DNA from: a virus | IMG/VR virus record: IMGVR_UViG_3300021373_001281 | Coordinates: 1-22,037 of that record | DNA length: 22,037 bases | Direction: 5' to 3' (one strand) | Shown here: piece by piece, positions 7,459-12,865 of the stretch | Position numbering within the stretch: position 1 is the stretch's first letter | How the letters are laid out: every line of letters begins with the position of its first letter | The notes under the pieces: generated by a model | What the model was told of the DNA's origin: nothing | Seen by the model: only the letters and a program-made list of their open reading frames with translations | Databases searched by the model: none | Made by a program: the position numbers and the translations under genes

Positions 7459-8346
7459 TTATTTTTGGTTTTCGTCTATTTGCATATAAGCCTTTATGAT
7501 TTCCGCCGCCGCTTGCGGAACGATGCTGTTACCCGCTCCGCGCAACGCCCCCACTCTTGAGGATAACCCATCAACCAGAGGGAAAAGTTCGGGTTCAGTA
7601 GGGACAAGTCGGATTCGACCATCTCTGCATTTGATTGGTTTTGCGCTTCTCCAAGAAGATTGAACGTCGTCGTCAATCGTGCGGCTCCTCCAAGCGTTGT
7701 TCCTCTCTTCGAGTTGCTCGATGCCGACCTCTCTCCCTGTACCTGAATATTGTCCTGAGTCGTTACTGTCGGCCAAATCGCCAGTTTGGTTATATTCGGA
7801 AGCTCTTGCTTTCCGACTCCCGCCGAACCCCTGCCATCGCTGTGGATCGGAGTCGGCCACAATCCACAATCTTGATCTTCTATGTAATGCCCCGACACCA
7901 CTAGCTGGGAGAACAAACGCCCCGATGGAGTAGTGTTCTGTTTCCATATCCTTCTGGACTTCATCAAGCCATCCGCTTTTGATAGATGTTGCAACTTGCT
8001 CCATAAAGACAGTTGAAGGTTTGCACTTCCGGATGAGCTGGAAAAAAGATGGCCAGAGATGCCGCTCGTCGCTTCTTCCTTGTTTTTGTCCAGCGTTTGA
8101 GAATGGCTGACATGGTGGAGAACCTGTCCAAACAGGTCGATCTGGTCTCCATCCTGAGAGTTGCAATGCTCTGCTCCAGCCTCCGATTCCGGCGAAGAAA
8201 TGGCATTGAGAGAATCCGGCGAGATCTTGCGGTTCGACATCTTTAATACTCCGAGTATCAACTTCCCCGTCCGGAATGAATCCGCCTCTGATTAACTCTC
8301 TGAGCCATTCAGCGGCGAAATCATCCCACTCGTTGTAGTAATTCAA
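7459..8346 (-). CDS. DNA (cytosine-5) methyltransferase, phage type
   Basis: A 295-residue C5-cytosine methylase using S-adenosylmethionine. Motif I HFFAGIGGWSRAL (49-61) binds the cofactor; motif IV SPPCQPFSNAG (76-86) holds catalytic C79; motif VI is MEQV (115-118) where most enzymes have ENV; motif VIII is HRRSRLW (155-161); and motif X is RVGALRGAGNSIVPQ (264-278). The short stretch about 165-245 is the presumed target-recognition region, so the recognised site is unknown. The start is TTG at 8344-8346, overlapping the upstream stop as TTGA. The first residues MNYYNE match the usual N-terminus of phage enzymes of this type, which supports this rare start. No restriction enzyme partner is adjacent, so it is probably an orphan methylase protecting phage DNA or modulating expression. 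Confidence 0.9.
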   Translation of the reverse strand: MNYYNEWDDFAAEWLRELIRGGFIPDGEVDTRSIKDVEPQDLAGFSQCHFFAGIGGWSRALQLSGWRPDRPVWTGSPPCQPFSNAGQKQGRSDERHLWPSFFQLIRKCKPSTVFMEQVATSIKSGWLDEVQKDMETEHYSIGAFVLPASGVGALHRRSRLWIVADSDPQRWQGFGGSRKARASEYNQTGDLADSNDSGQYSGTGREVGIEQLEERNNAWRSRTIDDDVQSSWRSAKPIKCRDGRIRLVPTEPELFPLVDGLSSRVGALRGAGNSIVPQAAAEIIKAYMQIDENQK

Positions 8347-10574: not shown

Positions 10575-12056
10575 CTAAAACTTCTTATATTTCCGTGACT
10601 TAGCGGATGCGATTTGTTGCGATTTTATCCAGTTTTCGACCTCCGGAACGATTTCTGCGTTTAAATTTACCGCCAAACCCTTCGGCCAGACTTTAAATTT
10701 GCGTTTGTAAGAATGCGCCGCCCAGCCATCTTTCCAACCCTTTTGGCGCGAGTGACGGAGTAAATTTGAGTACCACATTGATTTCTGAAACTTACTTGGC
10801 GGCTCTGGCTTATCGTCAATTCTGACCAGCATCGTGCTATCCGATTCTAATCTCTCGGTTATTGTTAACTCGTACCCGCACGAAGAGCATCGAAGCCCCA
10901 TCATAATCTGCTGGCATCTTGGACATTCACGAACCGATCCGTCCTCTTTCTTTTTCTTTTCGAGTTGGTTCTTCTCTGCGAATTTACGCTCGCCATCATC
11001 TAATTCTGAGACGTTCATTGATTCCGCATATCCGAACCGATTAACATTTCCGGCGTGATCCAGATAAATCGCATACGGCTTGGATTCGTGGAGTCTTTGA
11101 ATTCGTCCGGCTCTCTGCTGATATGCGATCGCGGATCTGCTCGGCGAACAGTCGATCAAACACCGGCTTTGCGGACTGTCGTATCCCACCCCAAGCAATT
11201 TGGAGCAACTGAGAATCTTGAACTCTCCGGCATCGTGGCCGCGATACAACTCAATCCGATCTTTTTCTTCTGTATACCCGTCGATATGTTGAGCCGAAAC
11301 TCCGGCCAACCTGAACATTTCAACCAAATATTTTGAATGCTTAATCGATGGCGAGAAAGCGATTGTTTGAGAGTTCTCCCCATGCTCTAACCAGTTACGA
11401 ATAATATCGCCAGTGAGTTGCTGGTCTTCTTCTGTCGCTCGGGCCAGCTCGTTTGGATCGTAGTCACTGCCGCCCGTAGCAAGAGCTTTGGCTTTTATGC
11501 CTTTCGTGTCGACTTTTGCTCCGCCGTAATAATGAACCGGCGCGAGATAACCTTTTTCCAAAAGTTCCGCGGCCGTGATTGGTACGACCAGATCATCCCA
11601 ATATTTTTTGAGTCCTTTAGAATACGGAGTCGCGCTCAACCCTACAAATTTCACGTTGGTATATCGTTCCATCAGCGCGATAACTGTCTTCCACGGCGTA
11701 TGAGCTTCGTCAACGATAGCGAAATCAAACTCTGGCGGTCGCCTTCGTCTGGCGATTGTTTGAATTGATGCGATCTGAACCGGCTTTGTGGGATCTGTCA
11801 TCCAGTGATCGGCTTGAATAACTCCGTAGTCCAGCCCCATCGCGGAAAAAGCGTCCATCGTCTGCTGAACCAGCTTAACCCGATCCGCGAGAAAGATTAC
11901 TCGCTTGCCGCGTTCTGCCGCGCATTTCATCATATAAGCGGCCGTTACTGTCTTGCCGAAGGAACAGCAAGCCGCGAGCATTACCGTTCTGTTTCCGCGT
12001 GCGAAAGAGTCGCGGATCATTTGAACAGATTTTTCCTGGTGACTTCTCAGTTGCAT
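10575..12056 (-). CDS. Superfamily 2 DEAD/DEAH-type helicase with C-terminal zinc ribbon
   Basis: A 493-residue ATP-driven helicase from the chosen ATG at 12054-12056. Motif Q-like RSHQEKSV comes first; motif I is CCSFGKT (30-36), an unusual Walker A with S-F before GKT; motif II is DEAH (116-119); motif III SATP (141-144); and motif VI QQRAGRIQR (313-321). After a lysine/glutamate linker (365-371) sits CPRC...CSSC (C378, C381, C390, C393), a zinc ribbon probably binding nucleic acid, then a basic C-terminal tail. A GGGAGG ribosome-binding sequence lies 8 nt before this ATG, so the longer frame from 12128 is less likely. The roles most consistent with the family are branch migration, origin unwinding or replication restart. 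It follows the structured RNA region directly, with a 71-nt gap to the last predicted stem. Confidence 0.9.
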   Translation of the reverse strand: MQLRSHQEKSVQMIRDSFARGNRTVMLAACCSFGKTVTAAYMMKCAAERGKRVIFLADRVKLVQQTMDAFSAMGLDYGVIQADHWMTDPTKPVQIASIQTIARRRRPPEFDFAIVDEAHTPWKTVIALMERYTNVKFVGLSATPYSKGLKKYWDDLVVPITAAELLEKGYLAPVHYYGGAKVDTKGIKAKALATGGSDYDPNELARATEEDQQLTGDIIRNWLEHGENSQTIAFSPSIKHSKYLVEMFRLAGVSAQHIDGYTEEKDRIELYRGHDAGEFKILSCSKLLGVGYDSPQSRCLIDCSPSRSAIAYQQRAGRIQRLHESKPYAIYLDHAGNVNRFGYAESMNVSELDDGERKFAEKNQLEKKKKEDGSVRECPRCQQIMMGLRCSSCGYELTITERLESDSTMLVRIDDKPEPPSKFQKSMWYSNLLRHSRQKGWKDGWAAHSYKRKFKVWPKGLAVNLNAEIVPEVENWIKSQQIASAKSRKYKKF

Positions 12057-12127
12057 CTTTTTGGCCTCCCGACCGAACATTTCTGTTAACTTTTTAAACG
12101 ACGCGCACGCCCCGTCTTTTTCTCCCA

Positions 12128-12560
12128 TAGAGGTCAGCCGCTATATCCTACAACTGGACCCTACGTTCGCCGAAGCGAATGGCATAAGCCATGATACTCA
12201 ATATCCCGATCCACAATGGTGAATCGACTCCCCGTTCCTTTCGGAACTGCGGCATTTGGATAAAATCTCTCACACTCTGCCGAGTTATCTCTATGGTCGC
12301 GAGCCGTCAGACGGGAAGGACGGGCATCGCATTAGTGAGTGTTCGATCGTCGCCTTTCGGCCGCTGTTTAAAGCCCCAGCTCGGCATTTTCAGAGTTTCG
12401 GTCTGAGTTACACACCGACTAGCATTTCGCCAGTTTTTTGACGGGTTCGTTCTTTGCGGGATTCTTGCGTAATGTACTGCCAAATGGGATAATTCCAATT
12501 ATCGGAACCCGATAGGCTAATCCTTGATAGTACATCGGCCAGAGTCCCTATTACTCGCCC
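12128..12560 (-). ncRNA. Candidate large structured noncoding RNA (new or unassigned class)
   Basis: About 430 bp with no credible reading frame, more GC-rich than neighbours, between a terminator and the helicase gene. Read as minus-strand RNA it contains GUUCC-GAAA-GGAAC (12234-12247), GCC-GAAA-GGC (12352-12361), UUCGC-UUCG-GCGAA (12166-12179), AUGGC-UUAU-GCCAU (12179-12192), UAUCGG-GUU-CCGAUA (12500-12514) and UCAGA/UCUGA (12390-12406). Longer-range pairs are AUGUACU (12529-12535) with AGUACAU (12472-12478), and UAGGGUC (12157-12163) with GACCUCUA (12128-12135, one bulge). A possible pseudoknot pairs UGCCGAG (12380-12386) with CUCGGCA (12278-12284) and ACACUC (12337-12342) with GAGUGU (12272-12277), the two 3' strands being contiguous. 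GNRA and UUCG loops occur only on this strand. Ends are approximate; no clear promoter was found. Function unknown. Other explanations: a long structured leader of the helicase mRNA, or an intron relic. Confidence 0.6.
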
Positions 12561-12591
12561 GACTGGTTACAGTTTAATCTGTATTCCATAG

Positions 12592-12624
12592 AAAAGCCAG
12601 AGACCTCCCGCTCTGGCTTTTTTT
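12592..12624. terminator. Strong intrinsic terminator, probably bidirectional
   Basis: A perfect inverted repeat of 11 bp, AAAAGCCAGAG (12592-12602) with CTCTGGCTTTT (12611-12621), and an 8-nt loop. Plus strand: seven T residues follow the GC stem (12618-12624). Minus strand: four T follow, directly after the stop of the 80-aa gene. It would end the recombination/replication operon before the structured RNA, and would also stop any plus-strand transcript. Confidence 0.85.
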
Positions 12625-12865
12625 ATGGCTTATATTTATAAGCCAACAATTTAATCAAATGCTCTCGATTTTCTTTACTGTCAGATCGCAATCTTCTGAG
12701 CCGAACTTTTTCGTTGCGAGACTCAAACCATTGTTCCGGTAGGTGAGAACCTTCGGTAACGGCCCCATCTTTGATGAATTTGATTTTTCCGCCGCTTGCC
12801 AGGAATTTATCTGTATCTTTTTTGATGATTTCCCGAAGTTCGTCCTTGTCTGCTTTGTGATTCAT
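12623..12865 (-). CDS. Small basic protein with an FLASGGKI motif
   Basis: An 80-residue basic protein, the last gene of the operon, with its stop touching the terminator. The motif DKFLASGGKIKFI (about 19-31) resembles small phage and bacterial proteins with a conserved 'F...GG.I' turn, some annotated as transcriptional regulators; this is from memory. The C-terminal third is arginine/lysine-rich, consistent with nucleic-acid binding. It overlaps the previous gene by 4 nt. Regulatory function is possible, not demonstrated. Confidence 0.75.
   Translation of the reverse strand: MNHKADKDELREIIKKDTDKFLASGGKIKFIKDGAVTEGSHLPEQWFESRNEKVRLRRLRSDSKENREHLIKLLAYKYKP

Follow-up and report, generated by a model that had tools for sequence, protein, structure and literature searches.

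What is encoded in the one sizable gap between genes of the window, the whole 22,037-nt linear fragment of an uncultured tailed phage (an IMG/VR record) that was analyzed? The main genes of the window are on the minus strand and include Sak, YqaJ, primase, NinB-like, NinG, helicase, terminase, portal, and head genes. A sequence-only reading had proposed that the gap, at positions 12128 to 12560, holds a large structured RNA on the minus strand. The structured RNA was borne out by covarying homologues, and promoter-like sites point to the minus strand, but the proposed extent was too short, as the RNA reaches further in the 3′ direction: positions 12100 to 12566 of the minus strand are predicted to encode a structured noncoding RNA of ∼460 nt. 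A probability of roughly 0.75 is given to the gap holding a representative of a new family of large phage RNAs, with this fold and a promoter-headed transcript.

Folding of the minus strand gave a z score of −3.18, with 0 of 100 shuffled sequences folding equally well, and the plus strand scored more weakly (z = −2.03). The helicase open reading frame (ORF) extends to 12128, but in relatives that lack this ATG or are frame-shifted the helicase begins at a ribosome-binding site and ATG matching position 12056. Position 12128 was therefore rejected as the real start, and the noncoding stretch therefore extends to ∼12057. Across ten homologues, each of the three reading frames on the RNA strand was interrupted and indels were mostly of 1, 2, or 22 nt, so the RNA stretch was judged not to be coding. 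Neither ARAGORN nor Rfam called a tRNA or tmRNA in the gap, and a weak BLAST similarity to a phage tRNA-Ser (E = 0.1) was not supported.

Homologues in the same position were found in ∼20 close phage contigs, and dozens of uncultured phages from metagenomes carry the family beside a replication helicase. A scan by helicase gave nine loci and an alignment-based scan gave 80, while two DNA patterns returned 13 and 43 contigs. Where enough upstream sequence was present, strongly diverged subtypes were found upstream of nearly all examined helicases at least 52% identical to that of the window, the noncoding stretch often lying directly upstream of the helicase and sometimes one or two ORFs away. 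Subtypes A (that of the window) to F were defined by sequence similarity and reading; some of the more diverged loci (in groups B, C, and D, and locus L039) are beyond the reach of the nhmmer models and were judged by reading of the sequence. On this comparison, the family consists of conserved, base-pairing, noncoding RNAs of about 460 to 510 nt with a predicted pseudoknotted core. By nhmmer there was one copy per contig and no second RNA in any phage. DNA similarity searches with four subtypes against 50,697 phage records found no isolate with the RNA, and an exact 21-mer around the GAAA hairpin was absent from viral contigs. Searching bacterial and archaeal genomes with the helicase alignment gave only relatives of 31 to 36% identity, without a detectable copy of the RNA, and five isolates with helicases ∼30 to 35% identical had no equivalent annotated element. 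In Pseudomonas phage PS-1 (L163), a 613-nt unannotated gap (1924 to 2536) precedes a distant relative of the helicase.

The proposed structure of group A, based on an alignment of ten sequences, contains 94 pairs in 21 helices. Standard pairs made up 94.5% of the cells, compared to 86.8% after shuffling. Two-sided compensatory changes were present at 27 of the 94 pairs, against 12.4 after shuffling and 4 to 7 with the partner slid, and the covariation score was 0.248 against at most 0.069 with partners slid; since the structure was drawn with the same sequences in view, the slide control is somewhat overstated, the two-sided counts being less affected. G-U pairs were tolerated across many helices. 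The strongest helices were the bulged GCGA/UCGC hairpin, the GAAA hairpin, the AUGGC/GCCAU hairpin, and the closing helix PA (Table 1). All of the minus-strand hairpins noticed in the sequence-only reading, including those with GAAA and UUCG loops, were present and have homologues elsewhere, most with compensatory changes and the CGC/GCG stem invariant; its bulged GCGA/UCGC hairpin corresponds to H10 and carries two-sided changes in relatives. The 8-bp helix PA (CCAUAGAG/CUCUAUGG), which occurs in relatives as CCGCAGA/UCUGCGG and CCGCAAA/UUUGCGG, had no part in that reading; with it, the RNA runs further in the 3′ direction.

Table 1. Coordinates of the predicted RNA, its elements, and flanking features in the window
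Feature	Position	Strand	Remarks
Helicase gene	10575..12056	−	PHROG 16, Pfam ResIII/Helicase_C; start assigned via relatives; ribosome-binding site ∼12065-12070
Structured RNA, group A (predicted)	12100..12566	−	nhmmer homologues and covariation; 5′ end placed by promoter, 3′ limit by last helix
Possible 3′ hairpin H18	12100..12116	−	weak: pairs mostly unchanged or broken
Closing helix PA, 3′ strand (CUCUAUGG)	12125..12132	−	covers spurious ATG at 12128
Hairpin H17	12136..12155	−	two-sided changes at 3/5 pairs
Hairpin H16, CGC-UUCG-GCG, C(UUCG)G loop	12168..12177	−	stem invariant
Hairpin H15 (AUGGC-UUAU-GCCAU)	12179..12192	−	two-sided changes at 4/5 pairs; 100% paired
Hairpin H13 (GAUUCAC/GUGGAUC)	12208..12225	−	two-sided change at 1/7 pairs; 94% paired
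Hairpin H12 (GUUCC GAAA GGAAC)	12234..12247	−	length and sequence vary in relatives
Helix b, strand b′ (GAGUGU)	12272..12277	−	inside PA; 0/5,000 permutations (groups A and D)
Helix a, strand a′ (CUCGGCA)	12278..12284	−	as for strand a
Closing helix PA, 5′ strand (CCAUAGAG)	12289..12296	−	two-sided changes at 3/8 pairs
Bulged hairpin H10 (GCGA/UCGC and CCGUC/GACGG)	12299..12330	−	two-sided changes: outer 4/4, inner 2/5
Helix b, strand b	12337..12342	−	0/5,000 permutations (groups A and D)
GNRA hairpin H6 (GCC GAAA GGC)	12352..12361	−	innermost pair CG, AU, GC, UA, or UG in relatives
Helix a, strand a	12381..12386 (7 bp with 12380)	−	perfect in window; 88% paired in group, two-sided changes 0
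Hairpin H4 (ACUGGC/GCUAGU)	12418..12434	−	two-sided changes at 2/6 pairs; 100% paired
5′ domain stem H2 (GAUGUACU/AGUACAUU)	12471..12536	−	compensatory and one-sided changes, hairpin H3 included
Hairpin H3, inside stem H2	12500-12514	−	
5′ hairpin H1 (GAGU/ACUC)	12542..12556	−	nearly invariant in alignment
Putative RNA promoter, −10 element TAAACT	12571..12576	−	TATACT in relatives; window copy weak
Intrinsic terminator (GCCAGAG...CTCTGGC, T tract)	12590..12625	−	closes upstream operon, just before RNA promoter
Gene with SutA RNA-polymerase-binding domain, 80 aa	12623..12865	−	PF20661, E = 1.1e-5, below curated cutoff

The two interleaved helices of the sequence-only reading were both found where it had placed them, with differing outcomes. 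Helix a is conserved only: covariation does not support it, and it is broken in several relatives, which leaves it a candidate helix and its coaxial stacking with helix b a proposal. Within group A, helix b changes on one side only, but the inclusion of group D and the mosaic locus L026 revealed compensatory change, with strands ACACUC/GAGUGU, GCACUC/GAGUGU, GCCGAUC/GGUCGGU, and GCCAG/CUGGC. In this set (A, D, and L026), strands paired with their own partners gave −13.9 kcal/mol, compared with −11.8 for swapped strands, and none of 5,000 permutations did as well; some flanking pairs are counted in these energies, and strands exchanged between close relatives do not make independent trials, so that the permutation count is not a strict probability. 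Since strand b precedes PA and strand b′ lies inside it, helix b crosses PA to form a pseudoknot. Group F has a counterpart of the same topology, in which a strand before the closing helix pairs within that helix, the strands being, among many alternatives, UGCAGUC/GACUGCA, GCAACC/GGUUGC, GUUAAACGCC/GGCGUUUAAC, and GCCCAG/CUGGGC (own versus swapped strands, −15.4 versus −9.5; 0 of 5,000 permutations). The predicted pseudoknot is thus supported by compensatory change in groups A and D and in group F. Covariation in homologues, the absence of which would have refuted the sequence-only reading, was found in the group A alignment, in helix b across groups A and D, and in group F.

Groups E and F differ greatly from group A, and no sequence match spans all groups. 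Common descent of groups A and F is nevertheless likely on the basis of position, topology, and mosaic intermediates. Locus L026 joins a group A 5′ part to a group D 3′ part, and L087 and L072 have a group E 5′ part, followed by a 3′ part whose likeness to group C was judged by eye. Such comparisons show that the 5′ and 3′ modules of the RNA recombine between phages. RNAs with modules of different subtypes were noted at L026, L087, L072, and L067, the mosaicism of L072 and L067 being judged partly or wholly by eye. Separately, L057, L089, and L091 carry an extra hairpin (GGAAUAAAA...UUUUAUUCGGAUG) at the same site of the group F core. In RNAs of groups E and F, the strand at the very 5′ end has two potential partners, one nearby and one distant (e.g., at L055 from ∼2062 and at L089 from ∼878; for instance, GUGUUGG with CCAGC or CCAACAC), and may thus serve as a switch between two states.

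The position of promoter-like sequences suggests where transcription would begin. Of 37 distinct loci, 35 had their best sigma-70-like −10 element ending 1 to 9 nt ahead of the first helix; individual promoter scores were often unremarkable, that of the window included, and it is the regular position that constitutes the evidence. Minus-strand transcription is therefore inferred to start at the first helix from a sigma-70-type promoter of its own, with a probable start site at ∼12564. The gap had also been described as isolated by a terminator. Such a terminator exists immediately upstream of the promoter, but it belongs to the preceding gene, and none follows the RNA. Its hairpin is conserved in group A, and 7 of 9 distinct upstream regions of this group scored as terminators. 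Downstream of the RNA, no terminator was found within 250 nt in 35 distinct loci except for one weak site at +222, and so the RNA probably forms the start of a longer transcript. At L121, a terminator-like hairpin that the scan did not count follows the RNA.

In group A, the gene order NinG, small gene, SutA-like gene, RNA, helicase was constant wherever the sequence reached. The SutA RNA-polymerase-binding domain (PF20661) was matched in relatives with E values down to 1.6e-10, several above the curated cutoff; the gene directly precedes the RNA in groups A, C, and D, and SutA-like homologues adjoin the RNA at L003, L026, L029, L034, and L037. No SutA-like gene preceded the RNA in the group E and F examples scanned. 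The downstream side varies: the RNA is followed directly by the helicase, by one or two intervening ORFs, or by Sak, the helicase then being on the other strand. The distance from RNA to gene ranges from tens of bases to ∼1 kb. The last arrangement is that of L123 and L144, in which the RNA reads into Sak. The genes of these two loci are arranged divergently, with helicase, primase, and terminase on one strand and the RNA followed by Sak and YqaJ on the other (L144, 4041 to 6091).

As far as Rfam and the searched literature show, this RNA family is undescribed. Searches of Rfam 15 with cmscan found no family match for the window at E values up to 10, none for 20 relatives at the gathering cutoff, and none for eight subtypes at E values up to 1; the introns, RNase P, tmRNA, riboswitches, and other families of Rfam 15 gave no match at the gathering cutoff, and the literature search found no description of the RNA. 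The sequence-only reading had likewise been unable to assign it to a class and had pointed to Rfam, where no hit that would reclassify it emerged. Very few RNAs of such size and complexity are known in bacteria or phages. Among them are the phage-linked GOLLD and ROOL, which are longer than the present RNA and whose roles are still unknown. The comparison that had been drawn with these two holds as a likeness, the present RNA also being phage encoded. GOLLD and ROOL are large, ornate RNAs whose stems are backed by covariation (PMC12286853), as is the present one. The likeness does not extend to membership: the GOLLD and ROOL covariance models matched neither the window nor its relatives or subtypes, and the present RNA is shorter (about 460 to 510 nt) and has other neighbors. 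The name of the ssNA-helicase RNA motif suggests an RNA motif before helicase genes; the present RNA, compared with it by name only, gave no Rfam hit at permissive thresholds.

The favored mechanism, to which we give a little under an even chance, is a folded RNA released from a leader and working in trans. The RNA would be made from its own sigma-70-type promoter, with the first helix at the start, and would form the first part of a transcript continuing into the helicase or other replication genes. Processing would then set the folded leader free, or the leader would persist as a protected, stable 5′ fragment; because no intrinsic terminator is present at the 3′ end, a free RNA would require processing. 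In the infected cell it would then work in trans, either serving as a structural scaffold or binding proteins of the host or the phage. The variable downstream gene and distance argue against a switch for one gene and likewise against a 5′ untranslated leader controlling the translation or stability of the next gene, as a riboswitch or by autoregulation of the helicase. The group A RNA does end just before the ribosome-binding site of the helicase, but at L123 and L144 it reads away from the helicase, and no conserved helix masking the ribosome-binding site was seen, so such control of the next gene seems rather unlikely. It is very improbable that the fold acts as single- or double-stranded DNA, e.g., as a replication origin recognized by the helicase. 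The element does lie beside replication genes in one copy per contig, and covariation alone cannot separate RNA from single-stranded DNA; nevertheless, promoters are aligned to the first helix, G-U pairs are tolerated, and GAAA and UUCG loops are typical of RNA. The modest single-sequence fold score would suit a chance fold in a gene-poor gap, but this was refuted by the covariation results, and together with the conserved place and the frame-breaking indels they leave virtually no room for it or for an unannotated coding region.

That the RNA always heads its transcription unit fits a cis-acting leader equally well, and this is the second-ranked reading after release and action in trans, one that we hold tentatively. 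As it is being made, and perhaps jointly with the SutA-like protein encoded just upstream, the RNA would modify RNA polymerase leaving the promoter, by antitermination or control of pausing, as in the lambda Q/6S leader and HK022 put, and thereby time replication and late genes. The RNA begins at the predicted start site without a 3′ terminator, and the order NinG, small gene, SutA-like gene, terminator, promoter, leader, operon recalls lambda, where the order is nin, Q, pR′, leader and the leader (6S RNA) starts at the promoter and ends in a terminator. Like that leader, the present RNA follows NinG and a small regulator gene, precedes a long operon, and starts at a promoter, as judged by sequence. 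It differs in being much larger and far more structured and in having no terminator at its end, and the gene beside it is SutA-like (groups A, C, and D) rather than Q-like. SutA is described as acting on RNA polymerase (PMC9300723), which favors a cis role where such a gene stands directly before the RNA; its absence before the group E and F examples scanned speaks against one. The HK022 put RNA is likewise a nascent structured RNA directly after a promoter, but put RNAs are far smaller and simpler than the present one. Terminator-like sites in the region of the downstream operon were at chance level (16 found, 13.3 expected), and antitermination judged by an excess of terminators was accordingly unsupported.

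A bolder and, in our estimate, improbable reading would combine these elements into a modular RNA machine, in which a pseudoknotted leader of ∼500 nt, made at the head of the replication operon and with its 5′ and 3′ domains shuffled between phages, would act with a phage SutA-like protein to reprogram host RNA polymerase. Whichever mechanism applies, the family is well sampled in sequence and covaries clearly, with a predicted start site, swapped domains, and consistent neighbors, and it offers concrete objects for cryo-electron microscopy and infection experiments. The recurring SutA-like gene provides a testable link to transcription control.

Elsewhere in the window, a 255-aa ORF (7494 to 8261, minus strand) overlaps the C-5 cytosine methyltransferase gene (7459 to 8346, minus strand) in another frame. 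This could be a genuine case of overlapping genes, or else an artifact of clustering; a similar ORF is present in L003 (7277 to 8017), and both frames match DNA methyltransferase PHROGs.
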